A DNA stretch of 50,756 nucleotides from a virus, in IMG/VR virus record IMGVR_UViG_3300042865_000860, positions 1 through 50,756 of that record. One strand, given 5' to 3'. The stretch's first letter is position 1. Every line of letters starts with the position of its first letter. The translations under genes were made by a program, and so were the position numbers. Positions 469 to 49,543 of the stretch are shown here, in pieces. The notes below the pieces were generated by a model. The model searched no databases. It was not told where the DNA came from and was given only the letters and a program-made list of their open reading frames with translations.

Positions 469-2088
469 ATGCCACAAGTAGTTAATATACTTACCTCAAC
501 AGGTATACCACCATATGATATTTATGTTTGTGATATAACAAATACGTTTTGTTATTTAGTCACAAGTTCTGTATCATTACCTTTTACATTTACAGTGCCA
601 CCTCCATTGGATACATCAACTTCAGTTATTATTAAACTAATTGATTCGACGGGTTGTGAATTTTTTGAATTATATCAATGTCCCGTAACTCCAACCCCAA
701 CGGTAACACTAACACAGACACCTACATCAACAGTTGTAAATCCATGTAACTGTATTGACGTTGTTAATTTTACGTCATCCGTTGTCGGGTATTTTGATTA
801 TGTGGATTGTAATGGTGTTCAACAATATTCAATTCCGGTTAATCCTGGATTAACTTATTATGTTTGTGGTAGTAATCCAACAAATGTTATTGGTCTTACT
901 GTAAATACTGGAATCCCTTGTGTTGGTGGAGGTTGTTTTCCGGTACCATCAGTTACTCCCACCCCAACATTAACTCCAACAAATACAATAACTCCAACAA
1001 TAACTCCGACTAATACAATAACTCCAACTAATACCCCAACTGAAACCCCCACACAAACGCCAACTAATACCCCAACTAATACTCCAACAATAACTCCAAC
1101 AATAACTCCAACTAATACTTCCACACTTACACCAACAATAACTCCAACTAATACTTCCACACTTACACCAACCGTAACCAATACTCCTACACTTACATCA
1201 ACCGTAACTAATACTCCTACACCTACACCAACCTCAACAAATCCTCCTCCTACACCTACACCAACCTCAACAAATCCCCCACCTACATTTACACCAACCC
1301 CAACTATTACCCCAACAAATACATTAACACCAACAAATACTATAACCCCAACAAATACTATAACCCCAACCTCAACCGTAACACCAACGGTAACTAATAC
1401 TCAAACACCAACAAAAACTATTACTCCAACCCCAACTGTTACACCAACAAATACATTAACACCAACAAACACATTAACACCAACAAATACATTAACACCA
1501 ACAAATACATTAACACCATCACCAACTACAGATTATAAAACATTTTTTGTTAGAACTTGTAATAATTGTGATGGATTATATCCTAGTGATGGATTTATAA
1601 GTTTACCATCAATAACTCTAATTGGTTCATCATTTATTGCAACTAATGGGGGGTGTTATGAGGTTTTAACTCAGATTGCTGGTACAATAACTTTATTTTT
1701 AGGTACGTCAAGTTTTTCTAATTGTGCGGGTTGTATTTCTTCAAATCCTTGCCCAACACCAACACCAACACCAACTCAGACTCAGACCCCAACTCAGACT
1801 CAGACCCCAACTAAAACAAAAACACCAACTCCAACACCAACAAAAACAACAACCCCAACTAAAACTCCAGGAGTTGTTTATGTTGCAGTGTCTTGTTGTA
1901 ACCCTTTGGTTCAAAAGTATGTAATACTACCATCCGCAGTATCTGGTCAAATAGTTTTAGTTAGTGGACAATGTTATCGAGTAGTTAATATATTTAATGG
2001 GACTCCATCATTTGTTGGAACATTATTATCTAGTGGTACAACTTGTGGTAGTTGTATTGCAACATATTTATGTAAATCCGCAGTATAA
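469..2088 (+). CDS. Mucin-like Pro/Thr-repeat protein with Cys-rich modules, probable virion fibre or adhesin
   Basis: The 539 residues are a mosaic. An N-terminal beta-rich domain (about 1-68) is followed by a Cys module (about 93-158), a long Pro/Thr linker of TPTNT/TPTIT-type units (about 160-352), a second Cys module (about 355-425), a short linker (to about 467) and a third, related Cys module (to the end). The last two modules share the pattern C-x-C or CC, then LPS, then CYxV, then CxxC and a final Cys; the same module recurs near the C-terminus of the protein at 12901. There is no signal peptide or membrane segment, so it is probably assembled in the cytoplasm as a structural part. 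Rigid Thr/Pro linkers between small globular modules fit a stalk or whisker. The GT60-like glycosyltransferase gene follows 61 bases downstream, which makes the Thr residues plausible O-glycan acceptors. Attachment to the virion is inferred. Confidence 0.75.
949..1530 (+). repeat. Pro/Thr-codon tandem repeat (mucin-like linker)
   Basis: A degenerate repeat of ACTCCAACA/ACACCAACA-type hexamer and 9-12-base units encodes TPT, TPTNT and TPTIT runs. The strand bias (A/C on the coding strand, almost no G) produces artefactual Val/Gly open frames on the opposite strand. Several exact 12-15-base units recur back to back, so slippage or recombination could change its length. Confidence 0.85.
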
Positions 2089-2149
2089 TATAATTAATTT
2101 ACTATTGTTTTTTTTATTTGATGTTTTATTATTAAAATAAAAAAATAAC

Positions 2150-3397
2150 ATGAAAATATTTGTTCAGATAGCCTCGTATAGAGACCCACAATTAGAACCA
2201 ACAATTAAGAATATGTTGGAAAACGCAAAACGTCCTAAAAATTTAAGACTTGGGATTTGTAGACAATATAACCCCGACGACCAATTTGATTTGTTAGAAG
2301 ATTATAGAAAAGACAAAAGGTTTAGAATTATAGATGTTTTATATACTGAGTCAAAGGGAGTTTGTTGGGCAAGAAACCAAGTTCAACAAGTATATGGTGG
2401 TGAAGAATATACACTACAAATTGACTCTCATATGAGGTTTGAAAAAGATTGGGACGACACTCTAATTAAAATGATCAAACAACTTCAGAAAAAAGGATTT
2501 GATAAACCTTTATTAACAGGTTATGTTTCTTCATTTGATCCGGATAACGATCCTGCGGGTAGAGTACAAGAACCTTGGAGAATGGCGTTTGATAGATTTA
2601 TTCCTGAAGGGGCGGTATTCTTTTTACCTGAAACAATTCCCGGATGGCAAGAAATGAAAGAACCTGTAACGGCAAGATTTTATTCTGCTCATTTTGCTTT
2701 TACTTTAGGTAAATTTAGTGAAGAGGTTCAACATGATCCTGAATTTTATTTTCATGGAGAAGAAATTTCAATTGCTGTAAGAGCATATACTCATGGATAT
2801 GATTTGTTTCATCCCCATAAGGTTGTTATTTGGCATGAATATACTCGTAAGGGTAGAACAAAACAATGGGATGACGATAAAGAATGGGGTAAAAAAAATG
2901 AATTTGCTCACAAAAAAAATCGTCAGTTATTTGGTATGGATGGTGAAGAAATTACTTTAGATTTTAGTAAATACGGTTTTGGTACAGAAAGATCATTAAG
3001 AGATTATGAAATATATTCAGGTCTTTTGTTTTCAAAAAGAGCGGTACAACAATATACCTTAGATAAAAATTATCCTCCAAACCCACATATTTTTGAAACA
3101 GAAGAAGAATTGATGTCAAGTTACGCATCAATATTCAAACACTGTATTGATATTGGGTTTACTCAAGTACCTGAGAAAGATTATGAATTTTGGGTGGTTG
3201 CCTTTCACAATGAAAACGATGAAACCCTTTTTAGGAAAGATGCTGACATCAATGAAATTAATTCAATGATGAATGACCCTGATGGGTATTGTAAAGTATG
3301 GAGAGATTTCCAAACAACACATAAACCAAAATACTGGGTTGTTTGGCCTTTTAGTACGTCAAAAGGTTGGTGTGAAAGAATAACAGGAAATTTATGA
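2150..3397 (+). CDS. GT60-like polypeptide alpha-N-acetylglucosaminyltransferase
   Basis: This 415-residue protein looks like the GlcNAc-transferase family PF11397 (GT60). Visible marks are the N-terminal IFVQIASYRDPQL, GICRQY, ESKGVCWARNQVQQ, the LQIDSHMRFEKDWD block with the DxH metal/nucleotide site (D92-S93-H94), FHGEEISIAVRAYTHGYD near residue 200, and a later GFGTERSLRDYEIYSG segment. In eukaryotes the family uses UDP-GlcNAc to modify hydroxyproline of Skp1 (Dictyostelium) or Thr of trypanosome mucins. There is no signal peptide or membrane anchor, so it would act in the host cytoplasm. It lies between a Thr/Pro-repeat gene and three further glycan genes, so the phage's own Pro/Thr proteins are the obvious candidate acceptors. 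Family membership is secure from motifs; the acceptor is inferred. Confidence 0.88.
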   Translation: MKIFVQIASYRDPQLEPTIKNMLENAKRPKNLRLGICRQYNPDDQFDLLEDYRKDKRFRIIDVLYTESKGVCWARNQVQQVYGGEEYTLQIDSHMRFEKDWDDTLIKMIKQLQKKGFDKPLLTGYVSSFDPDNDPAGRVQEPWRMAFDRFIPEGAVFFLPETIPGWQEMKEPVTARFYSAHFAFTLGKFSEEVQHDPEFYFHGEEISIAVRAYTHGYDLFHPHKVVIWHEYTRKGRTKQWDDDKEWGKKNEFAHKKNRQLFGMDGEEITLDFSKYGFGTERSLRDYEIYSGLLFSKRAVQQYTLDKNYPPNPHIFETEEELMSSYASIFKHCIDIGFTQVPEKDYEFWVVAFHNENDETLFRKDADINEINSMMNDPDGYCKVWRDFQTTHKPKYWVVWPFSTSKGWCERITGNL

Positions 3398-3454
3398 TTT
3401 TAATATCATATACTTAATATTGATTTAATAATATAAACAAAAAATATAATAAAA

Positions 3455-3826
3455 ATGGAATACCCAATAAGTGAAATTTTAGATAGATATTCAATTGCCG
3501 TTTTAAAAAAACAAAGATTAGATGCCGATAATGATGTTGAATTAAAAGATTTGTCGGAAGTAATTGAAGATTATAAAATAATTAATTCTCAAGTTATTGA
3601 GACTTATATCGATAAATTAATTTCTATTAATGGAGAGATATGGGATTTAGAATCTGATATTAGAAAAGGCAAAGAAGGTGAATTAGGATTAGAAGAAGTT
3701 GGTAGGAGAGCAATAAGAATTAGAGAATTCAACAAAATTAGAGTTGGTTATAAAAATATAATCGTTGAAACTTTTGGTGAAGGATATAAAGATGTTAAAA
3801 TGAATCACGCAAGTTCTGATGTATAA
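3455..3826 (+). CDS. Small DUF6165-like protein of a glycan-biosynthesis cluster
   Basis: This is a 123-residue, highly charged, mostly helical protein. Its opening (YPISEILDRYSIAVLKKQR) resembles the PVSxGExxDKxTILxIKxxR start of DUF6165-type proteins, which occur in bacterial sugar-transfer gene clusters and have no established activity. A predicted coiled segment follows (about 20-75). The stop overlaps the next start by 8 bases (ATGTATAA), so it is probably translationally coupled to the glycosyltransferase-methyltransferase at 3819. A role as an adaptor or regulatory partner of the glycosyltransferases is only an inference from context. Confidence 0.55.
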   Translation: MEYPISEILDRYSIAVLKKQRLDADNDVELKDLSEVIEDYKIINSQVIETYIDKLISINGEIWDLESDIRKGKEGELGLEEVGRRAIRIREFNKIRVGYKNIIVETFGEGYKDVKMNHASSDV

Positions 3827-5405
3827 GATAGTAATTTCCCTAACAACAGTACCCGAACGTTTAAATCAAGATGTTGAGGATGGTTTTAAATTGGTTATGA
3901 AATCAATTTGTGAACAAAATTTCAATAATTATGAAGTACATTTAAATTTACCTTTTACATATAATGTTACGGGTGAAGAATACATAATACCACAATGGTT
4001 AGATGACTATCAAGAATCATATGACCATTTAAAAATCTTCAGAACGGAAGATATGGGACCACCAACAAAGGTTATTCCAACTATCATTCGTGAAGACAGT
4101 AATACGTTATTAATCGTTGTTGATGATGATTTAGTTTATCATGAAGATATGATCTTAGAACATATAAAATACCATATAGAGTTACCTAATTCTGTTGTAC
4201 TATATGACGGTAGAAGTTTAGTGACTCCAAAGTACGGTGATTTAAGGGATTCTTGGGTTTTAAGTGTAAATGAACCATTGGAGGTAAAAGACTTACAACA
4301 TTATAAATCAGCATCATATTTTGTTAAATATTTTGAAACTGAATTCTTTAGTGATTTTGTGGGTAAAACAAAATCAGATGATGTTTTATTGTCATTTTAC
4401 TTTAAGTTTAAAAAGATAAAAATGTTTGTTGTTCCCTACGTCCCTGATGTTGATAAGTTATCAACGTATGATGATTGGTATAAATTTCAAGGGGTAACAA
4501 CATTTCCAGTTATTAGACATTCAAATAGTGTAACTAATACTGGATGTAATCACCCAACAATGTTAGACGAACAACCAAAATTTTTTATCCCTGAGGAATT
4601 TAAAATAATTGAAAATCCAAATTATAAACCATCGGATAATGTTATTGTTAGTTCTAAACCAAAAATAGTTGATGGGATTGCTAAACCCAATATTCCTGAA
4701 ATCATCGAAATTAATAATATATCCGACTTAGTGTATAAATTAGCCGGCGATTTTAATAAAATAGATAAAAGATTTTGGGACACAACACATCTAAGTGGAG
4801 AACAACATAATAATGAAAGAAGTAAACCGGCACCTTATATTAAAAAAACCTCTGAAATTGCCAAAGTTTTAGGACTTAAAACCGTTGTCGAAATTGGATC
4901 AACAAGACATGGTCTTACTCCAAAATGTATTAACTATTACTATTTAGGTGATAATCCTTTTGTGTCACCTCCTTGTTGTGCTGACGGTCACGGAGGTATA
5001 ATGTTTGCGTTAGAAGGTTTTGATGTTCATTCTGTTGATATTGATAAAAATTGTGTTATTCATGCTGAGTGGTCATTTGGGTCATTAGGTAGAGAAATTC
5101 CTAAAAATTTACATTTAAATATTCCAAAAGACGGTATTGAATTTTTAAAAGAGTTTGATGGAAAAATTGATGTTTTATTTTTAGATGGTTGGGATGTCGG
5201 AACCGATTTATATAAAGAAAAACATTTAGAATCATTTGAAGTGTGTAAAGATAAATTATCCGACACCCATTTAATTCTAATTGATGATACCGACTTTATA
5301 TTAACAAATGAAGGTAAAGATGCTTTATTATCACCTCATTTAATATCATTAGGGTACATTTTACTTTTTGATGGTAGACAAAAATTATATATAAATAAAA
5401 TATAA
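3819..5405 (+). CDS. Glycosyltransferase-methyltransferase fusion
   Basis: Two enzymes are joined in 528 residues. Residues 1 to about 270 form a GT-A-type glycosyltransferase: ISLTTVPERL at the start, IPQWL, the DMGPPTKVIP block, and an acidic triplet in LIVVDDDLVYHED (D102-D104) fit to bind a metal-nucleotide sugar. After a linker (about 270-330), residues 340-528 look like a class I SAM-dependent methyltransferase: VVEIGSTRHG as motif I, DVHSVDID ending the second strand, IDVLFLDGWD and LILIDDTD. The donor sugar and methylation target cannot be read from the sequence. The gene overlaps the small gene before it and is followed by the next start after 1 base, so 3455-7797 is probably one transcript. 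It may add and then O-methylate a sugar on the glycan begun by the enzyme at 2150. Confidence 0.72.
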   Translation: MYKIVISLTTVPERLNQDVEDGFKLVMKSICEQNFNNYEVHLNLPFTYNVTGEEYIIPQWLDDYQESYDHLKIFRTEDMGPPTKVIPTIIREDSNTLLIVVDDDLVYHEDMILEHIKYHIELPNSVVLYDGRSLVTPKYGDLRDSWVLSVNEPLEVKDLQHYKSASYFVKYFETEFFSDFVGKTKSDDVLLSFYFKFKKIKMFVVPYVPDVDKLSTYDDWYKFQGVTTFPVIRHSNSVTNTGCNHPTMLDEQPKFFIPEEFKIIENPNYKPSDNVIVSSKPKIVDGIAKPNIPEIIEINNISDLVYKLAGDFNKIDKRFWDTTHLSGEQHNNERSKPAPYIKKTSEIAKVLGLKTVVEIGSTRHGLTPKCINYYYLGDNPFVSPPCCADGHGGIMFALEGFDVHSVDIDKNCVIHAEWSFGSLGREIPKNLHLNIPKDGIEFLKEFDGKIDVLFLDGWDVGTDLYKEKHLESFEVCKDKLSDTHLILIDDTDFILTNEGKDALLSPHLISLGYILLFDGRQKLYINKI

Positions 5406-5406
5406 T

Positions 5407-7797
5407 ATGGAAAATTTTTTTGATGAGTCATTACACTTTTTAGGTAAAACTAATAATACCATAACCGCATTAAACATTGGTTCAATGGATGGTGTGATGT
5501 TTGACGAGATGATTGGGTATACTAAAATGTACAATTTTAATGTTCTATATGTTGAACCAATACCTTACCTATTTGATAGATTAAAAAGTAATATTGGTGA
5601 TGTAGGATTATTTGAAAATAGTGCAATATCTGATTATGATGGTGAAATTGAAATGATGACAATTGACAAAGAAGTCATTGATAGTGGTTTAATTCACAGT
5701 TGTTTTTATGGTATGAGTGCGGTTTATCCACCTAAAAATGGTTTGGGAAGTGAAGGCGATAGACTTACAGTTGAAAAATATGGTAAGTTGGTTAAGGTTC
5801 CATGTATCACATTTGAAACCTTAATGGATAAACATAAACTAAATAACTTTGATATTCTTAAAGTTGATGCTGAAGGACATGATTTTAAAATTTTTAAACA
5901 AATTGATTTTAAAAAATACACACCAAAGGTTATAAGATTAGAATGGATTAATTTATCTGAACAAGAACAAAGTGAGATAATTGAAATATTCAAAACTAAT
6001 GATTTTATATATGAAATATCGGGTCAAGATATTGTTGGGTTACCAAAATATTTTTATGATGAAATTTTTTCATCAAGTAAACCAAAAAATAATATTATTA
6101 AAAAAACTGTTAATACTCAAAACAATGTTATTACTATAGTTACGGGACTATGGGATATAGGTAGAGGAGAACTCCAAGAAGGGTGGTCTCGATCATACCA
6201 ACATTATTTAGATAAGTTTCAACAATTATTACAAGTTGACGTAAATATGATAATTTTTGGGGACGAAGAATTAGAAAAATTTGTATTAGATAATAGACGT
6301 GATGAAAATACTCAATTTGTTCGTAGGGATTTATCATGGTTTAAGAATAATGAATTCTACGATAAAATTCAAAAAATTAGAACCAATCCTGATTGGTATA
6401 ATCAAGTTGGTTGGTTAACAGATTCGACACAAGCTAAACTAGAGATGTATAATCCTTTAGTTATGTCTAAAATTTATCTTTTACACGACGCAAAAATTTT
6501 AGATAAGTTTAATTCAGAATATATGTTTTGGGTTGACGCCGGATTAACTAACACAATACATCCAGGATATTTTACACATGATAAAGTTTTAGATAAATTA
6601 CCCCAATTAGTTAATAATTTTCACTTTGTTTGTTTTCCATATGAAACCAATAGTGAAATACACGGATTCAAATATCAAGAGTTGTGTGATTTAGTTGGTA
6701 AACCTGTTAATATGGTTGCTCGAGCTGGTTTCTTTGGCGGAAAAAAAGACGCAATAACAGAAATTAATAGTATCTATTATGGGTTAATGAATGACACATT
6801 ATCACAAGGGTTAATGGGAACCGAAGAGTCATTATTTACAATTATGACATACAAGTATCCAAACTTAATTACTTATTCAGAAATAGAAGGTAATGGGTTA
6901 ATGGGTAGATTCTTTGAGGATTTAAAAAATACGACTGTTGAGGTTAAATCGGAAGTATCAAAAGATGTTGTTGTAAATAATTTGGACACATCAAAGGTTG
7001 GTCTTTATGTTATCACATTTAACTCACCAAAACAATTAGAAGTACTTATCCAATCAATGTTGGATTACGATAAAGATTTTATTGAGAAACCAAAGAAATT
7101 CTTATTAGATAATTCAACTGATTTATCAACAACACCAAGATATATTGAACTATGTGAACAATATGGTTTTGAACACATTAAAAAAGATAACATTGGGATT
7201 GTTGGTGGTAGAGTATTCGTTGCAGAACATTTTGATGAAACTGATTTAGATTTTTATTATTGGTTTGAAGATGACATGTCATTTTACCCTAAAAAAGGTG
7301 AGGTATGTCGAAACGGATTTTCTCGTTATGTTGATAATTTATATCAGAAATCATTAGAGATAATACAAAAAGAAAATTTTGATTTTCTTAAACTTAATTT
7401 TAGTGAATTCTACGGATCCAATGATATTCAATTTTCATGGTATAACGTACCACAAGATTTTAGAAAAAATCATTGGCCAAAAAATCCTAAATTACCTACT
7501 CAAGGATTAGATTCTAATTCACCTAAAACAAAATTTGATGAAATACATATTCACAAAGGATTACCATATATTACGGGTGAAATATTTTTGTGTAATTGGC
7601 CAATTGTTTTAACAAAAAAAGGTAATTATAATTGTTATTTAGAAACAAAATGGGCTCACCCTCATGAACAAGTACTTATGAGTTATTCTTATCAAGAAAC
7701 AGTAAAAGGAAAAATTAATCCTGGATTATTATTATTAACTCCAACGGAGCACCATAGATTTCATCATTATGATGGTTCTTTAAGAAAAGAAAGTTAA
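5407..7797 (+). CDS. Triple fusion: FkbM methyltransferase, HtrL/YibB-like and GT-A glycosyltransferase
   Basis: The 796 residues hold three parts. Residues 1 to about 210 resemble FkbM-family methyltransferases: ALNIGSMDGVMFDEM, LYVEPIPYLFDRLKSN, and FDILKVDAEGHDFKIF. Residues about 237-500 resemble HtrL/YibB (PF09612), a sugar-transfer family: TIVTGLWDIGRGE, the NRRDENTQFVRRDL region, MFWVDAGLTNTIHP and MGTEESLFTIM. Residues about 525-796 look like a GT-A glycosyltransferase with VGLYVITFNSPKQLEVLIQ, YYWFEDDMSFY as the acidic metal site, and a C-terminal WAHPHEQVLMSY. Bacterial relatives of each part are usually separate proteins in LPS, capsule or glycopeptide clusters. Together with 2150 and 3819 this gives up to four transferases and two methyltransferases, enough for a short methylated oligosaccharide. 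Substrates are unknown. Confidence 0.75.
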   Translation: MENFFDESLHFLGKTNNTITALNIGSMDGVMFDEMIGYTKMYNFNVLYVEPIPYLFDRLKSNIGDVGLFENSAISDYDGEIEMMTIDKEVIDSGLIHSCFYGMSAVYPPKNGLGSEGDRLTVEKYGKLVKVPCITFETLMDKHKLNNFDILKVDAEGHDFKIFKQIDFKKYTPKVIRLEWINLSEQEQSEIIEIFKTNDFIYEISGQDIVGLPKYFYDEIFSSSKPKNNIIKKTVNTQNNVITIVTGLWDIGRGELQEGWSRSYQHYLDKFQQLLQVDVNMIIFGDEELEKFVLDNRRDENTQFVRRDLSWFKNNEFYDKIQKIRTNPDWYNQVGWLTDSTQAKLEMYNPLVMSKIYLLHDAKILDKFNSEYMFWVDAGLTNTIHPGYFTHDKVLDKLPQLVNNFHFVCFPYETNSEIHGFKYQELCDLVGKPVNMVARAGFFGGKKDAITEINSIYYGLMNDTLSQGLMGTEESLFTIMTYKYPNLITYSEIEGNGLMGRFFEDLKNTTVEVKSEVSKDVVVNNLDTSKVGLYVITFNSPKQLEVLIQSMLDYDKDFIEKPKKFLLDNSTDLSTTPRYIELCEQYGFEHIKKDNIGIVGGRVFVAEHFDETDLDFYYWFEDDMSFYPKKGEVCRNGFSRYVDNLYQKSLEIIQKENFDFLKLNFSEFYGSNDIQFSWYNVPQDFRKNHWPKNPKLPTQGLDSNSPKTKFDEIHIHKGLPYITGEIFLCNWPIVLTKKGNYNCYLETKWAHPHEQVLMSYSYQETVKGKINPGLLLLTPTEHHRFHHYDGSLRKES

Positions 7798-7813
7798 TAT
7801 TTAGTAGTTCAGC

Positions 7814-7827
7814 ATATTTATAGTAAA
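7814..7827 (+). promoter_or_regulatory. Putative late promoter upstream of 7836
   Basis: ATATTTATAGTAAA ends 8 bases before the start at 7836. It matches the recurring late-promoter-like motif and suggests that the Pro/Thr-protein/protease group is transcribed separately from the glycan cluster. Confidence 0.5.
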
Positions 7828-7835
7828 AACTATAA

Positions 7836-9098
7836 ATGGAATTTTTCATTAAAAAGAATGCAACTCTCCCTATATTAAAATTACAGGTTGTAAAAGACGG
7901 TAGAAGTGATTATAATTCTTTCATGGATATGATTGAAGAGTCCTCTATCTTCTTTTCAATGACTAATGTTGAAACCGGGATTCCTAAAATTTCAACAAGT
8001 TCGGCTGGATTTGTTGAGAAAGTACTTTTGGATCCTAATGCGGAACCTGAATATTACATTTATTATCAATTCAAACCACAAGACACAAATAAAACTGCAA
8101 GATATGAGGCTCAATTCTTATTAAGAAATTCTCAAGGAGTTTTAATATTACCAATACGAGAACAATTATTTATTAATGTACAAGAAAGTTTCATTGCGGA
8201 AGATTTACCATATGAAAGTTGTTATTTAATAGAGTTTCCTTGTTGTAATAATGTGTGTCCAACAACAACTACAACAACTACAGAATGTTGTTGTCCTCAA
8301 GACACTCCAACATCAACACCAACACCAACTGTCACACCAACACCGGGATTATCACCTACACCTACACCAACACCGGGATTATCACCTACACCTACACCTA
8401 CACCGGGATTATCACCAACACCAACACCAACAAAAACTCCAATACCTCTTCCGTCACCAATAGATGAGTTTTGTTTTAGTGTGTTTATTCAATCACCAAC
8501 AGTAACTCCAACACCAACAATTACACCAACAGGAAGTCCAATTCCTTGTTGTAATACTTGGTATTATTTTGGGGGACCTGTTTCTGGATCTACATTCCAA
8601 TGGTTAGATTGTTCAGGAAACACAACAACCTTTAGTGCTTCAACGGGATACGCTTCTACAATATGTGCGTTATCCGTTATAAAATTATCGGGAGATGGTC
8701 AAACTTATCTTGAAAGTACTTGTACTTGTGGTTCCGCACAACTAACCCCAACCCCGACTCCTACACAAACACAAACTCCAACAACAACTCCAACAACAAC
8801 TCCAACAACAACACCAACAACAACACCAGGATTATCACCAACTCCAACTCCAACAAAAACAAAAACACCAACAACAACAACAACACCAGGATTATCACCA
8901 ACACCAACACCAACAAAAACACTTACTCCTACTCCTACCGTAACACCAGGATTATCACCGACACCTACACCAACAAAAACACCTACACCAAATCCTACCG
9001 TAACACCAGGATTATCACCGACACCAACACCAACACCAACTTGTGGAATTATAACTAATAACACTATTTATATAAAATATAATACTAAATCATGTTAA
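7836..9098 (+). CDS. Pro/Thr-repeat virion-type protein with N-terminal docking domain
   Basis: This is a 420-residue protein. Residues 1 to about 135 form a beta-rich domain ([17 protein letters not shown] at the start, [23 protein letters not shown] in the middle) whose layout recalls the Ig-like N-terminal domain of phage baseplate upper proteins (BppU type). That is a resemblance, not a firm assignment. A Thr run and Cys cluster follow ([13 protein letters not shown]), then Pro/Thr linkers with repeated [11 protein letters not shown] units, a Cys module ([11 protein letters not shown] to CTC, about 233-303), and a second long linker of the same units to near the C-terminus. A closely similar Cys module is in the protease at 9092. 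The stop overlaps the next start (ATGTTAA). A likely role is a virion stalk; the many exposed Thr residues are candidate O-glycan sites. Confidence 0.68.
8284..8457 (+). repeat. Pro/Thr repeat with 30-base [10 protein letters not shown] units
   Basis: Copies of an approximately 30-base unit containing CCGGGATTATCACC encode [10 protein letters not shown]. The units are directly adjacent with no unique spacers and stay in frame. Confidence 0.85.
8744..9043 (+). repeat. Second Pro/Thr repeat, four GLSPTPTPT units
   Basis: An A/C-rich tandem repeat encodes TPTTTPTTT runs and four more copies of the GLSPTPTPT unit, each preceded by ACACCAGGATTATCACC. The same unit also occurs in the gene at 9092, giving homologous DNA in neighbouring genes. 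Confidence 0.85.
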
Positions 9099-10930
9099 CT
9101 GACGAAATAAAAGAAATTATCGAAGAACTTTTTAACGCCACACCTAATGATGTGGGCGTTGGTTATGGTACAAAAATAAAAAATGGTGAAATGACTAATG
9201 AAGAGTCAATCATATTTTTTGTACCAAAAAAAATACCGTCACATTTAATTCCTGAAAATGAATTATTACCTGATGTTGAATTTACTTTAAGTGATAGAGT
9301 TCTAAAAACCGATGTTATTGAGGTGGGTATAATTAAAACTTTTGCTTGTGATCCTAGTTGTTACACTTGGACAAATCCAGGTACACCACCAACAAATCGT
9401 CTACAACATAGACCAATTAAAGGTGGTATATCAATTACCTCTCAAACTAAACTTGGTTTTGTAGGTACTTTAGGATTTATTGCGGTTGATGTTGCAACTC
9501 AAGCTTTGGTTGGTGTAACAAATAATCACGTTGTAATTAGGGACGCATCATACACAAGTCAAAGAAACCCATCAGGTCTTATACAAAATGAATATGATAT
9601 TATTTCAGGTGGGGCGGTACAACCTGATTCTGCATTTCAAAATGGGGAATCATCTTCACCTGCTCCTGCAGCTATGATTGGTCAAGTTGTTAGGTATGTT
9701 CCGATATCCGTGTCGGGTGGAGTTAACAAAGTTGATGGAGCACTAATTTCAGTTGAATGTAATCCAGTTATCGATATTGCGGAATCTTTCAAACAATTTG
9801 GTTTGACTTATAATTCTCCTTACGTTTTTGCAACAACGACAGAAATTAATAATTTATTAACAACAAATCCAATGTTGTTTAGTAGTGGTAGAACAACAGG
9901 AGTTAAACAAGGAATACCTTGTCCACTAAGAACTTTCACGTTGGGTTTTGCTGGTGGTGTCAGTGGATATAATATCCAAGGAACATCAACCACAATTCCA
10001 TTCACGGATATAATTATGTTTGTAAGACCCGAAAACGACCCTAACTTAGCAACCGTTTGTAACTACCCTATTTTTGCTGGTGATTCTGGATCTGCATTGG
10101 TTGCAGATTTTAGTGGTACATCAAAAATTGTTGGACTAGTGTTTGCTGGTTCTGAATATTATGGGTTTGCTTGTAGAATTGACCACGTAGCAAGTGAACT
10201 TGGTATTCAATCTTGGGATGGAACAACTAAACCATACGTTGATTCAACCACAATATCCTATATTACAGTGCCAGGGTTTAATAGTGTTAAAACACAAGTT
10301 TCGGGGGGTGACACATATTGGCAAGTAGGCGCTTATAATTTAACAGTACCATGTGATATTAGTCCAACACCTACTGGTACACTTACACCCACACCTACCC
10401 CAACCACACCTTGTTGTAAAACTTGGGCTTATTATGGTGGTCCGTTTGGTACTGGTTCAACAATTTCTTATGTTAGTTGTGAAGGTGTAACAATTTTATT
10501 ACCCGTTCCCACCTTCCAAACTGGTACCATATGTGCAATAAGTGCAAGTGTTATTTCTGGATCGGGTTCTGTTTATACTGAAGATTCATCATGTGATTGT
10601 ATTCCAATTCCAACACCAACACCAACTGTCACACCAACACCGGGATTATCACCAACCGCAACACCAACCGTAACACCAAGCGAAACTCCGAGACCAACCG
10701 AAACTCCAACAACAACACCAACACCAACAATAACAACAACACCAGGATTATCACCATCAACAACACCAACCAAAACACCGACACCAACAGTAACTAAAAC
10801 TAAAACTCCTACTCCAACGGTAACTAAAACTCCAACACCTACACCAACTAAAACACCTACACCAACACCTGTTAACGCAGCTGTTGGTCCATTTACGTCA
10901 TTTGTGACATTTGAATCATATAATTGCTAA
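9092..10930 (+). CDS. Trypsin-like serine protease with Cys module and mucin-like tail
   Basis: The 612 residues begin with a small domain seen in bacterial trypsin-like peptidases ([32 protein letters not shown]; about 15-80). The protease domain is about 105-375. A catalytic triad is visible: His146 in GVTNNHVV, Asp215 in KVDGALIS, and Ser332 in [11 protein letters not shown] Cys module ([11 protein letters not shown] to CDC, about 440-505) closely matches the one in the protein at 7836. The rest is a Pro/Thr tail with TPGLSP units. There is no signal peptide. The start is fixed by the ATG overlapping the preceding stop. The next gene is a paralogue. Such a protease on a fibre could mature virion proteins or cut host surface proteins at entry; which one is not shown. 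Confidence 0.82.
10603..10872 (+). repeat. Pro/Thr repeat in the protease tail
   Basis: An A/C-rich tandem repeat encodes [15 protein letters not shown] and [13 protein letters not shown] units. It shares exact stretches of about 20 bases with the repeats near 8330 and 8880. Confidence 0.85.
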
Positions 10931-10941
10931 TAATAAAAAAA

Positions 10942-12870
10942 ATGATAACAGAAGAAATAAATAAAAAATTAAAAGAATGGAGTGATAATACACCATCTGA
11001 TGTTGGTGTTGGTTATGGGTTTAAACAAACTAACGGTATTTATACTGGTGAAGTTTGTATTGTTTTTTCGGTGAAAGAAAAAAAACCGTTAAGTAATTTA
11101 TCCGATAATGAAATTTTACCATCAGAAATAAAAATAAGTGAAAATAAAACACTTAATACTGATGTAATACAAGTTGGTGAAATTTATACTTTACAATGTA
11201 GTAGAACAACACCTATCACTAACTCACCTCCGCTTTGTGAGCCTTTTGTATTAACACCACCAACAAATAGATCTGCATTTGCAACATTGAGAGGTGGTAT
11301 ATCTATAACTTCGGTAAGAAAAGGTAATTCTGTTGGTACTTTAGGTATGATTGTGCAAGACATACACACGAACGCTTTAGTTGGTTTAACAAATAATCAC
11401 GTTGTAATTGGAAACTCTATAAAGGCTCAATATCAAAATTTAAATCCTGTATTGGGAAATAATTTCCCAATAACTAACGAAATAAATCCAGATAATGACG
11501 TTTGCCAACCTGGGGAATTTGGGTTTCAAACAGGTAGTAAATTTGGTCAAGTTGTTAGATATGTACCAATTTCACCCTATCAAACTTTACCACCAAGTAG
11601 CGGATGGATAGCATCTCCATTAGGATTACCAAAAAATAATGTAGATGCCGCATTAGTTAGTATTAATTGTAATGAAATTGATTTTAATCAATCTTTTAAA
11701 TTTTCGGGGTTTGAAGCTTTAATGCCTAATCCATTACCTTTTGCAACAACCGCTGAAATTAATAACTTATTGGTAACAAACCCACAATTATATAGTACTG
11801 GTAGATCAACCGGACCAAAGGGTTTAGGAACACCGGGATGTGAATTAAGGATTAGTCAGATAAATGTTGCAACTGCTGTTGGACCTTATAGTTGGCATTT
11901 AGCTGCTGGCGGTCAACAATATAGTACAGCTGCAGATTTTAACCCAAGATTAATAGCATTTTTTAAACCAAGCGGTATACCTGCTCAACCACACTGTTTA
12001 TGGCCATGTGCCGGTGGTGATTCAGGATCAATGTTAATTGCTAATTTTGGTACCCAACCATCACCAAACTTTAAAGTAATAGGTTTAGTATTTGCCGGTA
12101 ATAGCTGCCCATCTTATCCCACTGCTACTGGAGCCAACAATGTTTTTAACACTAATTACGCCATAACTCCTCCACCAATAGGATGTGGTTTACCAAATTC
12201 ATACAACAATTGGTTAGGTTATGCTTGTAGAATTGATGACGTTGCAAATGAGTTAGGAATTAAAGCTTGGACAGGTGGGACAGCTCCATTAGTAAATCCA
12301 AACCTAAATTTAATTACTTTACCGGGATTAAACCCAATCACAGCAACAACCTGTTTAAATGAATATTATTACCAAGTAGGTACCACAATGACCCAATCCG
12401 TATGTAGCGCACCACCAAGTCTTATTTTAACAAGTCCTCAGTTCTTAAATGGTCAAACATTAGCTCAGTCGGTAAGACATCCAATCTGTCCTCCAGGTCA
12501 AAATTATAGTGTTGGATTAGATTGGTTTATAAATAACTTAAACACAAATGATGTTATCAGTTATAGTTTATTAATGGAAGATATTAACGCACCTGGATCA
12601 AGTCCTAGTGGATATTTTGTTCATTGGAAAGTAATAAATATCCCACCAACTCAAACATCAATTAATTTATGGACATCAGGACTCTCAGGATGGCAAGCAG
12701 GTGCGTCTATACAACAAACAGATTGGTTCCCAAATGCGGTTAATCCAAATGGTTATGGTGGAACTTGTCCTCCAAATCATACATACAGAATATCTATTAC
12801 GGCATTTATAACACCTGCAGCTGGTGGTGGTACGATAACAAGTAATTTACTTACATTTATTAGTAGTTAA
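10942..12870 (+). CDS. Trypsin-like serine protease fused to a PEBP (Raf-kinase-inhibitor-like) domain
   Basis: This 642-residue protein is a paralogue of the previous gene over the first 460 residues. It has the same N-terminal domain (DVGVGYGFKQTNG, LNTDVIQVG) and a complete triad: His153 in GLTNNHVV, Asp235 in NVDAALVS, Ser361 in GGDSGSMLIA. Instead of a Pro/Thr tail it ends with a domain (about 493-630) carrying PEBP/YbhB-type marks: SPQFLNG, GQNYSVGLDW, MEDINAP (for the DPDAP box), HWKVINIP, and YGGTCPPNHTYRISITAF (for the YGGPCPPxGxHRY box). PEBP proteins bind anionic lipid or phosphate groups, and some inhibit serine proteases. I place the start at the ATG at 10942, after AATAATAAAAAAA, because it aligns with the paralogue; an in-frame TTG at 10924 lies inside the preceding gene. 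No signal peptide is seen. Confidence 0.82.
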   Translation: MITEEINKKLKEWSDNTPSDVGVGYGFKQTNGIYTGEVCIVFSVKEKKPLSNLSDNEILPSEIKISENKTLNTDVIQVGEIYTLQCSRTTPITNSPPLCEPFVLTPPTNRSAFATLRGGISITSVRKGNSVGTLGMIVQDIHTNALVGLTNNHVVIGNSIKAQYQNLNPVLGNNFPITNEINPDNDVCQPGEFGFQTGSKFGQVVRYVPISPYQTLPPSSGWIASPLGLPKNNVDAALVSINCNEIDFNQSFKFSGFEALMPNPLPFATTAEINNLLVTNPQLYSTGRSTGPKGLGTPGCELRISQINVATAVGPYSWHLAAGGQQYSTAADFNPRLIAFFKPSGIPAQPHCLWPCAGGDSGSMLIANFGTQPSPNFKVIGLVFAGNSCPSYPTATGANNVFNTNYAITPPPIGCGLPNSYNNWLGYACRIDDVANELGIKAWTGGTAPLVNPNLNLITLPGLNPITATTCLNEYYYQVGTTMTQSVCSAPPSLILTSPQFLNGQTLAQSVRHPICPPGQNYSVGLDWFINNLNTNDVISYSLLMEDINAPGSSPSGYFVHWKVINIPPTQTSINLWTSGLSGWQAGASIQQTDWFPNAVNPNGYGGTCPPNHTYRISITAFITPAAGGGTITSNLLTFISS

Positions 12871-12900
12871 AATTAAAGAAAAAAAAACAAACATTAAAAA

Positions 12901-15900
12901 ATGAATTATGATTTTAATTTTATTGGTTTTTATAACTCAAAACCTTCTTGGGTTGGGTATGATAACACAACTCCATTAACAATTAGATGGAATAATCTTG
13001 GTTATTGGGAAATGATCGGTTGGGAGGGTATCTTCTGTGGACAACCAAGATCAACAGATAGTGACTCTTTTCCTGATACAGGATGGTTTATTTATGATCC
13101 AACTGATAGTTGTTCAGATGCGTCTTTTGATGTAACAATTGGTGAATGTCCATTACCGGGAGTCGCAGTATTTCAATCTTGTTGTGACCCTAGTATATAT
13201 ATACGAATAGATAATATCCCAAGTACTTTTTTTCCTATAACCACTAATTCATATTATTTATCTTCATTATTATTTAATGGGTGTATAACTAACGTTTCTC
13301 CATCCACGCCAGCATCAACTCTAATATCATATACTGATGATTTGGCAACCTTAATAGAACAATTGGGTGATTGTTCCGTATGTTTATTAGAAGAACCTTG
13401 TCCAACACCAACCCCTACAGTAACACCAACTATGACAGTAACACCGGGACTACCTCCAACACAAACACCAACACAAACTTCAGGGTTATTACCAACACCA
13501 ACACCCGTTTGTCCGATATGTGCAACGGTTAGTGCTTTACCTGGTTTAGGATCTTCAACAACAATTAATGGTGTTACAGTAACCGCCTCAGGTTTTGGTG
13601 ATATTCTAACAGATCCAGGGGGTAGTTTTGCTTGGTGCATGATACCACTCGGATCAGCAACTAATACCGCATTTTTAGGGTCCGCATCATTTTTATCATC
13701 GCCATTTACTTATATTTTAAATTTTAGTTCACCGGTTAATAATTTAGTAATAAGATTAATTAATTATAGTTCACCACCAGGTTTCGGATCTGAATCATTT
13801 ACGTTTACCACAAATAGTGGTAACCCTGTTTTATCTTCTTGTGATTATTGTTGTGCTACAATTATTGGAAATGTTGTTACATCAATTTTTTGTCCGATTT
13901 TACCAGGAACTAATGATGGTGGCGGTACGTTCACAATTTCAAATATATCTACATTTACCACTTTAACCATAACAGGACCAGGTGGTTATGGTGGTACCAT
14001 TGTTGACATATGTTCAGATTCGGTTCAACCACCCGTATCACCAACACCAACACCAACTGTTACACCAACATCAGGATTATTACCATCACCAACACCAACA
14101 AATACTCCAGAACCAATTGATGCGAACTGTTTACCTTTAATAATGACAAGGTTAGATACATCTTCTCCGGCTTCTGTCGGTTTATATTCTTATAATCCAA
14201 CATCAAATATAACAACATTACTAAATTTACCCAATTCTTTAAATGTATTAGGTCAATCTATGACAAATACATCAACAAAATTATGGATATGTCAAGACGC
14301 TTCTCAAGGAATAAGAGAATGGGATATTACGTTAAGTCCTTGGAATGCAGTTTGGTCTAGGGACATTGCATCTCCAAGTGCTATTCCAGGGTTAGGTTGG
14401 TTGGCAGGTGCATTATGTGTATATAGGGATCCAATAACAAATATAGTCAACCCTAACTTATTAGTATCCATGGGATTTAGTAGTACAGGTTTTGACATTG
14501 TTTTAGTGGACATTAGCGGAACTGTTTGGTCTAAAACTTCATTATTTCAATTAAGTACTTTATCAGCTAATAGACAAATTACTGAAGTTGTTATGAACAA
14601 CAACGGTAAAATGATTACAATAGGACTTGACACATCAACATTACAAAAATACGTTACTCAATTTCAATATATTGCAGGTTCTTGGCAGGTACAACTCGAC
14701 ATTCTAATTTCAATAACAACTACTATACAATCATTTTTCCAATGGAATAATTTATTTTATATAGGAGGATTTCCTGGTAATGAACTTTGGTCAATATCAA
14801 ATGTATCTCCGTATACAACTTCATTACTTGGAAACTTTTTGCAGAGTAGGTCTTTTGATTCAGGGCAAAGTCCTGAATGTATTGATTTGGAGTTTATACC
14901 TCCATATGTTACACCAACACCAACTGTAACACCAACTGTTACCCCAACAGATCCTCCACCAACACCAACACCAACACCTCCACCATTACCTTGTGATTGT
15001 GATCAAGAAACTCTTTTACCTGCAATAGGCAATAGTATTATGTATTCAAATGGTCTTACAATTTCCGCAACTGGTACAGGATCTGTTGCAATTTATCCAT
15101 CTCCATCTTGTTCGGAAATTTATTGTGGTTTTTGTGCGATCCAAAATTCGATTTACATTGGTGGGAGTGGTCCATTCACATATACATTAAATTTTAGTTA
15201 TCCAGTTAATGATTTTAAAATTTTTTTAGTTGGATATAATGTTGGAGAATCTTTTACTTTAACAACTAACACAGGGAGTAATACTCCCAATATTAATTTA
15301 TGTTCAGGATGTTGTGTTTCAATTTCAGGAAATGTAATTACCGCCTCTAATATAAATAGTGATTGTGATGGCGGGGTAGTAGGTTCAGGTCTATTCAACA
15401 TAAACAACTCACTTCCTTTTACATCTTTAACAATATCAGGACCAGGTGGTGGATCTGGTTCAGTATTAACATTTTGTGATTCCGTACCAGAAAATATTAT
15501 TTGTTTAGAAAGATGTAATGTTTTATTTGTTGCATTAGATGCGAGTAATGTTAGTTTGGATGTTTATTCTTATGATATTACAACTAATATCCCAATTTTT
15601 TTAACACCATTTTTTAGTGGGTCATATCCATCACTTTCAATTTATGGAATTGCACACACATCTAATAAAATCTTTTTACAAACTGTTGTTTCTATACCTG
15701 GAGGGACCCAATGGGTTATTTATGAGTACGACTACCAACCATGTCCTTTTAGTGCAACATTTAATAGAATTATAACAATTCCACTTCCTATTGTTATGGG
15801 TAGCGGATTGACGGCAAAAAGTAATTCCACATTAATTGGTAGTATTACTGTTAGTTCAACGATTACAGAAATAGTAGAATTTGATATTACGACAACAACA

Positions 15901-17838
15901 GCATCATTATTAACTTTAATTACATTACCTCCAAATGTTCAAGTTTTTGAGGATTTAATGTTTACAACAACATCTCCAAGTAAACTATTAGTTAATGTAG
16001 GTATGGGTTTTGGTGGTTTTTTTGGGATAAATCAGTATGACTATACTACTTTATCATTGGATGTTTATGTTCCTTTTAATCCTTTTACTATATTTAACAC
16101 TTATGGTTTATTTACTGATAATAGTCAGATATATTTTACCGGAGACGGTCAAAACCCTATTGGTCCATTATGGAACATTAACCAATCTCCTCCATACCCA
16201 TTTACTTTAGTTCAAAATTGTGGGCTTAGAGTATATAACGCCTCAAGCATTCCAGAATGTAACGATTCATTGTTATATCTTAGTGGATCGACACCAACTC
16301 CAACACCAACACCAACGGTTACTCCAACTGTTACCCCAACAGATCCTCCTCCGACACCAACACCGACACCAACACCAAATTGTCCTGACTGTGAAGAATT
16401 TGCAAACTTACCATTTATTTATGAATTTTTAAATAATCCCGGAGGATCGGTTACTACGGCATCGTTAACATATTCTAGTGGTATGGTAATAACTTCAACA
16501 GGATTTGGTAATTGGCCAGCATATGCAGGTGTTTATACTTGTTCCCCTTCTTTTAACATATCTAGTCCGGTATTTGGATTAGGTGCTCAACCAAGTACTC
16601 AGTGGCCAATTCCACCTCCCGCAATAGTAACATATTCATATACAATGACATTTAGTATTCCTGTTACCACTGTCACTTTAAGAATTTCCTATATTAGAAC
16701 ATCTGGAAATCCCCCATATACTGCTCTTAGTACTGCAATGACTTTTACCACTAATATTGGAAATCCACTTATCACATCATGTGATCACTGTTGTTCAACT
16801 ATATCTGGAAATGTAATTCTTGGTGGAACTGGTGGTAGTGATTGTTTTACTTTTATAACAACAACAGGTTTAGGTGCGGGAGTATTTACCTTTAGTAACT
16901 CATTACCATTTACATCGTTAACTGTTATAGGAAATAAAATACGAGCTTCACAAACTTTAGAAATTTGTGGGATTGGTTATGTTATTGATCCGACAACACC
17001 AACACCAACACCAACAAATACTGTAACACCAACAAAAACTCCAACAAATACACCAACTCCAACAAATACACCAACAAATACACCAACAGGAACTAACCCA
17101 CCACCAACGCCAACTCCAACTCCAACAAATCCACCCCCACCAACCACAACACCAACACCAACACCAACAATAACTATAACTCCCACACAAACAAAAACAC
17201 CTACCCCAACAAAAACTGTAACTCCAACAAAAACACCAACACCTACTCCAACACCAGTATTTGTAACATATTTAGTTCTTGATTGTTGTACTAAGTCAAT
17301 ATTTAGATACGTTAATTTACCATCAACATTTACACCTGGAAATGTGATTATTGGTACCGATTTACAATGTTATGAGGTAATTACATTACAAATAGGAGCA
17401 ATAAGTTTAATATGGAATAATACCACATCCGTAAACTGTGATACTTGTATATCAACCTACCTTTGTGTAACCCCAACACCAACCCCAACAAAAACTAAGA
17501 CTCCAACCCCAACGGTAACTAAAACTCCAACATTGACACCGACTAAAACAACAACTCCAACGGTAACCCCAACTAAAACGGTAACCCCAACCTTAACAAA
17601 AACCCCAACCCCAACCTTAACAAAAACCCCAACCCCAACTCCGAGTTGTTTTTACTATAGGATTAATAATACTAATGCGACAAAAGAAGTTTCTATAACA
17701 TTTACACCGTGTTGTATTACCGAGATTTCACCTCTGATTATCGGTCCAAGTGGAGTAGCAACTATTTGTTCATCTACAGCACCTTCACTTCCCGCTGGTG
17801 TGACATCAATTTTATTGGGTCCTTGTCCAACTTGTTAA
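12901..17838 (+). CDS. Giant multidomain mucin-like adhesin or fibre (1645 aa)
   Basis: A modular protein. An N-terminal domain (1 to about 85) and a Cys module (to about 160) are followed by three copies of a roughly 170-200-residue beta-sandwich-like unit (about 203-378, 698-860 and 1160-1360). Each copy has YTxNFSxPV or YTMTFSIPV, SFTxTTNxGNP, a CxxCC cluster, an SGNV stretch and a final FTSLTxxGP-like strand. Between them lie two roughly 260-residue regions (about 405-668 and 865-1125) with repeated blades such as [11 protein letters not shown] and [11 protein letters not shown], suggestive of beta-propellers. Pro/Thr linkers separate all units. Near the end are a long linker, the CYEV/CISTYLC Cys module shared with the protein at 469, another linker and a final Cys domain. 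No signal peptide or membrane segment is visible. Large size, repeated sugar-binding-like folds and stalks suggest receptor or polysaccharide binding; this is inferred. Confidence 0.72.
16990..17257 (+). repeat. Pro/Thr repeat linker
   Basis: Tandem ACACCAACA-type units encode [19 protein letters not shown] and TPTKT runs between the third beta unit and the Cys module of the giant adhesin. Confidence 0.85.
17470..17643 (+). repeat. Pro/Thr repeat linker near the C-terminus
   Basis: CCAACCCCAACAAAAACT-type units encode [17 protein letters not shown] runs. A unit of about 24 bases is perfectly duplicated near 17593-17640. Confidence 0.85.
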
Positions 17839-48877: not shown

Positions 48878-49543
48878 ATGTCAATAGATAAAAAAATATT
48901 AGAAGAAATTAGAAGATATAAAAATATCAATAAATATATCTTAGAACAAGAAACACCTCCGGGTGAAGAATTACCCCCACTTCCGGGTGGAGAGGTTGCT
49001 CCTCCACCTCCTGGCGGAGAATTACCACCACCTCCGGGTGGAGAATTGCCACCACCTCCGGGTGGAGAGGTTGCTCCTCCACCTCCAACCGAACCAACAC
49101 CTCAACCAGTTGATATTAAAAATGATCCTGATGTGGAAGAAGTTGGAAATGAAACCGAAGAACTTGATATTACCGATTTAATTAACACACAAAAAACATT
49201 TGCTGACAAACAAGAAGAATATTTTAATAATTTATTTAATCAATTAAATACTCTTGAGACTAAATTAGGTGAAATGGATAATTTAGTTAATACGGTAAAT
49301 AGTTTGGAATCAAAAATTGAAAAAATAAGACCAAAAACTCCTGAAGAAAAATTGGAATTAAGAAGTTTAGATTCTGGACCGTTTAATCAAAAATTAAGTG
49401 ATTTTTTTGATGACAAAATGGGAGAAATGGAAAAATCTGGAAAAAATGAATATGTTTTAACAACTAATGATGTTGAAGAATTTTCTCCAAATGAAATTAA
49501 AGGTAGTTTTAATGACTACGAAGACCAAGATGAAATGATGTAA
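48878..49543 (+). CDS. Pro/Gly-repeat coiled-coil protein, possible internal head protein
   Basis: This is a 221-residue protein. The N-terminal helix (SIDKKILEEIRRYKNINKYI, then LEQE) is followed by a repeat of PPPPGGEL/PPPPGGEV units (about 28-72), an acidic linker, a predicted coiled coil (about 98-150: TQKTFADKQEEYFNNLFNQL and LETKLGEMDNLVNTVNSLES) and an acidic C-terminus. The N-terminal helix ending in ILEQ could be a prohead-targeting peptide with an (L/I)xE cleavage site, similar in idea to the RLTE proteins at 24 kb. The Pro/Gly repeat lacks Thr, so it is not a glycosylation linker of the other type. Function unknown. Confidence 0.62.
   Translation: MSIDKKILEEIRRYKNINKYILEQETPPGEELPPLPGGEVAPPPPGGELPPPPGGELPPPPGGEVAPPPPTEPTPQPVDIKNDPDVEEVGNETEELDITDLINTQKTFADKQEEYFNNLFNQLNTLETKLGEMDNLVNTVNSLESKIEKIRPKTPEEKLELRSLDSGPFNQKLSDFFDDKMGEMEKSGKNEYVLTTNDVEEFSPNEIKGSFNDYEDQDEMM
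48955..49092 (+). repeat. Pro/Gly-codon tandem repeat
   Basis: About five copies of a 24-30-base unit containing CCACCACCTCCGGGTGGAGA encode PPPPGGE(L/V). Two neighbouring copies (near 49023-49070) are almost exact, so the length is probably variable. Confidence 0.8.

Follow-up and report, generated by a model that had tools for sequence, protein, structure and literature searches.

What does a bacteriophage modify with a cluster of glycosyltransferase genes that lies among proteins built on long threonine/proline (Thr/Pro) repeats? The question is raised by the IMG/VR virus record IMGVR_UViG_3300042865_000860, which at its whole length of 50,756 bases is the window analysed here, and in which profile matches identify T4-like myovirus genes (DNA polymerase B, tail sheath, baseplate hub, helicase, tail tube, and SSB). 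A sequence-only reading of the window had proposed that a glycosyltransferase of family GT60, encoded at 2150-3397, begins mucin-type O-glycosylation of the phage's own Thr/Pro proteins. We consider the most likely explanation to be a phage-encoded, cytoplasmic O-glycosylation locus that is initiated by GT60 and coats the phage's own Thr/Pro stalks with variable glycans. To the Thr/Pro segments of the phage's own proteins being the acceptor we give a probability of roughly 70%, and for GlcNAc as the first sugar the chances are about even.

The GT60 enzyme and its Thr/Pro neighbours

All open reading frames (ORFs) described in the sequence-only reading are present where it had placed them, and its GT60-like call for 2150-3397 was confirmed by a match of the product to PF11397, “Glycosyltransferase (GlcNAc)” (E=1.6e-71; 242 bits, where the cut-off is 21), with the best stretch at residues 54-293; NCBIfam returned no name for this product. 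A secretory signal is not evident in the enzyme, and signal peptides are likewise absent from the Thr/Pro proteins of the window, as judged by inspection of their N-termini only. Across an alignment of 27 GT60 sequences, the most divergent at 44% identity, no member departs from the motif D92-S93-H94, which we take to be a metal-binding Asp-x-Asp/His motif that supplies a metal ligand. The nearest bacterial relatives are Saprospiraceae/Bacteroidia enzymes with 70% identity.

Because the protein gave only chance matches against PDB sequences (the best, at 0.13, being T7 RNA polymerase) and its profile gave none at E<=1, we turned to fold comparison using an AlphaFold2 model (pLDDT 91, pTM 0.83). 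In Foldseek, ranks 1-24 were all polypeptide GalNAc-transferases (best E 3.3e-10, TM 0.50), as were rows 1-29 in VIA-align (top row Z 22.1, with an rmsd of 3.5 across 270 residues), where the next unrelated fold scored Z 17.5. The phage GT60 is predicted to have a fold closest to that of the polypeptide GalNAc-transferases, a shared fold being no proof of function. These GT27 enzymes, the initiators of animal mucin-type O-glycosylation, offer the closest solved fold, but there is no detectable sequence match between them and the phage GT60. The invariant DSH presumably recalls the Asp-x-His motif of GT27. GT27 enzymes also carry a lectin domain; the fold comparison hardly reached the phage residues beyond ~327, and we therefore name no fold for them.

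Two described GT60 activities both act on polypeptides. TcOGNT1, a Golgi UDP-GlcNAc:polypeptide alpha-GlcNAc-transferase of Trypanosoma cruzi, makes GlcNAc-alpha-Thr in mucin-like proteins, after which other glycosyltransferases extend the sugar (PMC9472816), while Gnt1 of Toxoplasma and Dictyostelium modifies hydroxyproline of cytosolic Skp1 (PMC6939170). The sequence-only reading had named both chemistries. The hydroxyproline variant appears unlikely in the phage because a prolyl-hydroxylase-like PF13640 gene was found in only one of 17 GT60 records (and in none of five others), with the reservation that records may be incomplete and that a hydroxylase of the host or of another family could serve.

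The four long Thr/Pro proteins that had been described at 469, 7836, 9092, and 12901 held up, with the segment lengths given in Table 1. Within the segments, Thr makes up 37-45% of residues, Pro 23-30%, and Ser 3-6%, and the window contains 15 occurrences of the codon pattern for TPTPTPT, where 100 dinucleotide shuffles give an expectation of 0.00. One could regard such repeats as spacers that are kept or expanded by replication slippage, with the glycosyltransferase block modifying another virion protein or part of it (the capsid, the sheath, or folded domains). DNA-level tandem arrays are indeed present in the window, and glycans on capsid and tail-tube C-termini have been reported in mycobacteriophages (cited in PMC12619734). 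Synonymous codons nevertheless differ within the TPTPTPT matches listed, and the pattern read backwards has a single match across 27 GT60 phage records, so it is the amino acids that are kept and not just the DNA. The repeats also accompany GT60 on unrelated proteins (virion proteins, VgrG, sheath, and Tat-like proteins), and we consider the spacer explanation unlikely.

Between the Thr/Pro segments lie small “bead” domains (G-x-CY...C-x-x-C), of which we counted 56 copies in 32 loci, near-copies included; 53 of them have TPT or PTP within 40 amino acids. Beads occur in the window in 469-2088 and 12901-17838, as well as in a crAss-like contig (L324) and in loci L209, L050, and L055. The bead-carrying proteins of the window have no Pfam match, and it is plausible that the Thr/Pro proteins are fibres. 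A repeat of another kind is found at 48878-49543, where Pro/Gly/Glu repeats of the PPPGGE type are nearly free of Thr.

Distribution of GT60 and Thr/Pro repeats

GT60 was found in 359 IMG/VR stretches, of which we studied the loci of the 80 nearest, together with 17 distant loci (97 loci). A Thr/Pro ORF lies on the same strand as GT60 in 72 of the 80 nearest loci and ends fewer than 400 bases before it in 58. For a wider view we searched 27 GT60 phage records, consisting of three cultured phages and 24 of the 97 IMG/VR loci (longer contigs and distant ones, forming 20 clusters at 97% GT60 identity). Relatives with the enzyme and no Thr/Pro protein had been named in the sequence-only reading as its refuter; the TPTPTPT pattern is present in 26 of the 27 records, the sole exception being a 40-kb fragment, and in none of the GT60-free controls.

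The pairing was also recovered from the opposite direction. Among 43 contigs of at least 30 kb chosen by the repeat alone (out of 79 contigs listed from a search with at least 120 matching stretches; some may be kin of each other), 11 encode GT60, including six of the seven that reach at least 100 kb. Random viral contigs found by an arbitrary pattern, 29 of 78 being at least 30 kb long and included without taxonomic matching, had neither GT60 (0/29) nor TPTPTPT (0/29). The difference in GT60 between the two sets is significant (Fisher p = 0.002), and the same GT60 search that gave no match in the random contigs did give matches in the repeat contigs and in cultured phages. Only three of 50,697 GenBank phage records have a GT60 match (XacN1, RAS14, and CM1), and all three carry repeats, while ten cultured jumbo phage relatives (287-490 kb, one a partial genome), picked for diversity among 37 listed of 60 further relatives, have neither the enzyme nor the repeats (0/10). 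For 3/3 versus 0/10 the p value is 0.0035, or 0.015 if CM1 and RAS14 are counted as one, which they may have to be because they are alike in both genes compared.

Some distant members show the same arrangement. A Thr/Pro ORF lies directly upstream of GT60 in L103 and L104, whose identity to the XacN1 query is 37%. The crAss-like contig L324, which is filed under a Planctomycetaceae metagenome-assembled genome (MAG), has upstream of its GT60, with one small ORF in between, a protein that begins as a virion structural protein (phrog_14478, E=1.3e-71) and is otherwise Thr/Pro-rich, and downstream of GT60 a muzzle-type Thr/Pro protein. In XacN1 the GT60 is ORF334, 48% identical to that of the window and grouped with a carbamoyltransferase and a YibB enzyme (ORF330); ORF325, a protein of 3313 aa with C-terminal Thr/Pro segments, lies ~9 kb away beside genes annotated as baseplate wedge, and further repeats are found in ORF180, 190, 232-237, 372, and 384. 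The 2018 proteomic study of XacN1 reported “at least two glycoproteins”, and its authors suggested two glycosyltransferases, ORF328 and ORF334, as responsible (PMC5852040). The virion spectra of that study are deposited as PXD008065 and were searched for carbamidomethylation, oxidation, and deamidation only; Thr/Pro segments contain few Lys or Arg residues. Glycosylation by this GT60 has thus already been proposed, and the link to Thr/Pro repeats is what is new here. The glycoproteins, which come without named proteins or sites, are a direct hint in favour of the mucin-like glycosylation put forward for the window.

The glycosyltransferases might instead act on phage DNA, making hypermodified bases that evade restriction. 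Phage enzymes that glycosylate DNA are known (Pyle 2024), and genes of the thymidylate-synthase family occur in 12 of 17 GT60 records. Their best matches, at E ~1e-44 to 1e-98, are as expected for ThyA and not for dCMP hydroxymethylase, a weak argument given that the thymidylate-synthase family alone was searched, but a role in DNA modification would also leave the association with repeats unexplained. We regard it as very improbable.

The pairing extends to bacteria. From 196 GT60 loci in bacterial genomes we kept 80, and the genomes of 50 of these loci were searched whole. A Thr/Ser/Pro-rich ORF is present in 20 of the 80 loci, a count that includes at least three chance-like frames (L362, L372, and L390). 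TPTPTPT occurs in 33 of the 50 genomes and falls within the GT60 locus in eight of the 33; as these eight genomes each devote less than 0.5% of their length to the locus, independent hits would lead one to expect 1.06 genomes at most (Poisson p 2e-5). Four genomes have all of their repeat hits in the GT60 locus, and reading the pattern backwards gives no hit in the bacterial GT60 loci listed. Two of the eight (L324 and L347) look like phage contigs. On a FastTree phylogeny of 111 GT60 proteins the Thr/Pro label has to change 20 times, which means that the link is dispersed across the tree and not confined to one clade. The proposal of a phage O-glycosylation system withstood its refuter in the phage records, and the pairing is not specific to phages.

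Several bacterial partners belong to contractile machines or carry what look like export signals. In Paraburkholderia (L342:15075-17564) and Trinickia (L346:15067-17415), VgrG proteins of the type VI secretion system (T6SS) that are encoded a few kb from GT60 terminate in runs of pure TPTPTP, and in Azospirillum (L356) a contractile sheath near GT60 has a Thr/Pro insert; the partner in L365 bears a fucose-binding lectin domain. A single locus of the isolate Jiulongibacter sediminis JN14-9 holds GT60, a carbamoyltransferase homologue, a FkbM-YibB-glycosyltransferase fusion, and a Thr/Pro protein with a signal resembling those of twin-arginine (Tat) export, and the fusion is 52% identical to the 5407-7797 product over 795 residues. 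Tat-like N-terminal signals were seen on partners in L315, L316, L321, L337, L350, L359, L364, and L393. With one rule for all Thr/Ser/Pro-rich ORFs, the twin-arginine motif was found in 9 of 22 from GT60 loci (including the chance-like L390) and in 1 of 9 controls, while an earlier, stricter screen of TPTPTPT ORFs only showed no difference (2/12 versus 2/18). A comparison of 7:0 against 1:5 (p=0.005) had been made by hand after seeing the data and was set aside. The Tat-like signals are suggestive only, and we treat them as a lead and not as a result. Two Sphingomonas MAGs (L351:6387-10004 and L358:6388-9996) encode proteins of ~1200 aa in which Thr/Pro segments are joined to an Rv2525c-type glycoside-hydrolase-like domain and which end a few bases from the GT60 start.

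Several observations weigh against the proposed role of GT60 and call for caution beyond that attached to the fold. The 80 nearest phage loci are not independent because near relatives inherit gene order, and 32 of the 43 repeat contigs lack GT60, most of them being fragments. Of the 17 distant loci, only 2 have a Thr/Pro ORF on the same strand as GT60; when both strands are counted, Thr/Ser/Pro-rich ORFs occur in ten, or seven without the chance-like antisense frames in L091, L092, and L099, and phages of the XacN1 type carry their repeats on the other strand or at other places. In bacteria, 60 of the 80 loci have no Thr/Ser/Pro-rich ORF within the stretch covered (some stretches being short-ended), and 25 of the 33 genomes with repeats have none of them in the GT60 locus, so that other functions are probable for some GT60 enzymes.

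The variable cassette and a possible route of glycan assembly

The sequence-only reading had placed two fusion enzymes with further glycosyltransferase and methyltransferase domains downstream of GT60. For 5407-7797 this was substantiated as to FkbM and HtrL_YibB, which are joined by a third part without a Pfam match, while in 3819-5405 the GT2-like domain (17 bits, cut-off 23.3) and the methyltransferase-like domain (Methyltransf_24, E=0.024) both remain below cut-off; the two halves of 3819-5405 match separate ORFs in loci such as L009 and L031. Fold comparison of a model of the 5407-7797 product (pTM 0.45) returned two-domain GT-A enzymes, K4CP and LARGE1 among them; the E-values were good but the TM-scores low (~0.2), a hint that its third part may be GT-A-like. 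The small gene at 3455-3826 had been called DUF6165-like, a name we have dropped, as there is no Pfam match even at E<=10 and no NCBIfam match; two relatives have below-cut-off matches only (coiled-coil and DUF4254).

A YibB homologue is the usual partner of GT60 and accompanies it in 72 of the 80 nearest loci and in 14 of the 17 distant ones. We surveyed the interval between the two genes in 81 loci with both on one strand, using simply called ORFs. These intervals, which range from 911 to 6317 bases, contain 248 ORFs in 71 families and 42 gene orders; the 3455-3826 family (c9) has seven members among them. Among 40 representatives of these families there are matches to transferases (GT2, GT25, GT10, GT34, FkbM and other methyltransferases, carbamoyltransferase, sulfotransferase, and pyruvyltransferase) as well as to epimerase and nucleotidyltransferase. 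In shape the region is a locus for building glycans whose two ends are constant and whose middle varies. Mosaicism is also apparent in L053, where GT60 is 81% identical to that of the window versus 92% for the YibB-glycosyltransferase protein, and the N-terminal domain of the 7836-9098 product comes after the enzyme block in many relatives.

Such a cassette could also be read as acting on the host, altering its O-antigen or capsule against superinfection, with the Thr/Pro proteins being unmodified flexible fibres that are neighbours by chance. Clusters of glycosyltransferases in jumbo cyanophages have been read in this way (Iyer et al. 2021), the cassette enzymes (GT2, GT25, GT10, and carbamoyl-, sulfo-, and pyruvyl-transferases) resemble those of surface-polysaccharide loci, and bacteria have GT60 in loci without Thr/Pro ORFs. 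Membrane genes of the GtrA/GtrB/Wzx type are absent among the 25 of 35 families shown for the 40 cassette representatives, no direct search for them having been made. A role at the host surface would, however, explain neither why GT60 and repeats are found together and missing together nor the closeness of the enzyme to a polypeptide-transferase fold, and it seems to us improbable. None of the rivals accounts for this shared pattern of enzyme and repeats.

In the glycosylation system that we propose for the phage's own stalks, GT60 would place the first sugar straight onto Thr in the Thr/Pro segments, the GT2-like, YibB-type, and further GT-A-like domains (3819-7797) would extend the chain, and the methyltransferase domains would cap it. 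Modification would take place in the cytoplasm before virion assembly, and the outcome would be virion proteins whose domains are joined by extended, glycan-coated linkers on the outside of the particle. Related phages retain GT60 and YibB but exchange the genes in between, which suggests that attachment is constant and the outer glycan varies, as one would expect of a coat under selection by receptors, host defences, or grazers. From the family and fold of the enzyme, the repeats, their co-occurrence, and the variable cassette we infer the Thr of the repeats as acceptor, GlcNAc, the order of steps, the location on the virion here, and the biological advantage.

Table 1. Features of the window that belong to, or adjoin, the proposed glycosylation locus.
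Feature	Position	Strand	Evidence
Thr/Pro stalk protein of 539 aa whose Thr/Pro segments are separated by small bead domains that contain Cys; proposed acceptor	469..2088	+	Thr/Pro segments 254 aa, 45% Thr, 23% Pro; two beads, E 5e-16 and 7e-14 (model built from those beads)
GT60 glycosyltransferase, proposed initiating polypeptide glycosyltransferase	2150..3397	+	PF11397 E=1.6e-71; PHROG 24687 E=2e-173; AlphaFold2 model
Small 123-aa protein, one of the variable cassette genes	3455..3826	+	No Pfam, NCBIfam, or PHROG match
Fusion of GT2-like glycosyltransferase and methyltransferase-like domains; proposed glycan extension/methylation	3819..5405	+	Matches below cut-off
Fusion of FkbM methyltransferase, HtrL_YibB, and a further GT-A-like part	5407..7797	+	PF05050 6e-15; PF09612 7e-20; third part without Pfam match
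Thr/Pro protein, proposed acceptor	7836..9098	+	Thr/Pro segments 171 aa
Protease-type domain followed by Thr/Pro tail; proposed acceptor	9092..10930	+	phrog_20754 “protease” 3.6e-20; NAL1_N below cut-off; Thr/Pro segments 127 aa
Second protease-type protein with C-terminal PEBP-like domain; probably not an acceptor	10924..12870	+	phrog_20754 2e-14; PF01161 3e-10; 0 Thr/Pro-segment residues
Protein of 1645 aa whose other domains, a Cys bead among them, are joined by six Thr/Pro segments; proposed acceptor	12901..17838	+	Thr/Pro segments 313 aa
Thr-rich insert within the tail sheath gene 28848-32159; possible further acceptor	29733..29807	+	Sheath phrog_23 8e-55; runs including PTTTSTTT

The protease-type neighbours at 9092-10930 and 10924-12870 show NNHV and GDSG motifs by inspection, and the tail sheath at 28848-32159 is long (1103 aa) and has Thr-rich runs. 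Elsewhere in the window, 22257-23351 on the minus strand has no PHROG match; by inspection, its C-terminal part resembles Fe/Mn superoxide dismutase, and the N-terminal part to which this is fused carries HEWVHEW, a motif like that of zinc peptidases.

Known systems and biological meaning

Glycosylation of virions by phage enzymes and mucin-type O-glycosylation are each known already, and what is new is a GT60 initiator with linked Thr/Pro acceptors and a variable cassette. We know of no Thr/Pro mucin-like repeats and no GT60 initiator in mycobacteriophage glycosylation, and the serine-rich-repeat adhesins of Gram-positive bacteria use GtfA/GtfB and the accessory Sec pathway, unlike the system in the window. 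Both resemble the proposed system. Mycobacteriophages carry glycans on their own virion proteins, the targets being capsid and tail-tube C-termini (Freeman 2023, as cited in PMC12619734), and the adhesins are repetitive proteins that are O-glycosylated inside the cell before export (PMC7948813). TcOGNT1 shares with the window's enzyme its family, its action on Thr of mucin-like proteins being that predicted here (PMC9472816), but it is a Golgi enzyme, whereas the phage GT60 has no evident secretory signal and lies beside probable acceptors and a variable extension cassette. Gnt1 is also GT60, is cytosolic, and has its first sugar extended by further glycosyltransferases, one of them bifunctional (PgtA); it differs in requiring a prolyl hydroxylase and in targeting hydroxyproline (PMC6939170). 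In the “moraphages”, four core groups are putative glycosyltransferases, and proline, threonine, and mucin do not appear in the main text of that study (PMC12619734). A search of open-licence PMC papers, by titles and the starts of abstracts, found none tying GT60 to Thr/Pro repeats in phages or bacteria.

A broader reading, which we hold only tentatively and at rather less than even odds, is that GT60 marks a prokaryote-wide, cytoplasmic mucin-type system for Thr/Ser/Pro-rich segments of surface structures that leave the cell without Sec. Its acceptors, which would include phage virions, contractile injection machines (T6SS VgrG and sheaths), and Tat-exported proteins, would be completed in the cytoplasm ahead of assembly or of export in folded form, its attachment enzyme would be conserved and its glycan cassettes traded between phages and Bacteroidota, and the eukaryotic GT60 enzymes acting on mucins and Skp1 would be of the same lineage. 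The Tat link, if real, would fit because Tat export, phage assembly, and contractile machines all use proteins finished in the cytoplasm, where a signal-less GT60 would act; the stricter Tat screen described above counts against this extension.

If the proposed system is real, phages make mucin-like coats with their own enzymes, and glycan switching would be a phage route to coat variation. GT60, with tested members from protists (PMC9472816, PMC6939170), would gain a large prokaryotic branch with predictable acceptors, and its 359 stretches in IMG/VR would provide a handle on hundreds of uncultured phage contigs. Thr/Pro repeats, which are easily dismissed as low complexity, would gain a meaning, and the family would offer simple enzymes for mucin-type glycosylation in bacteria.

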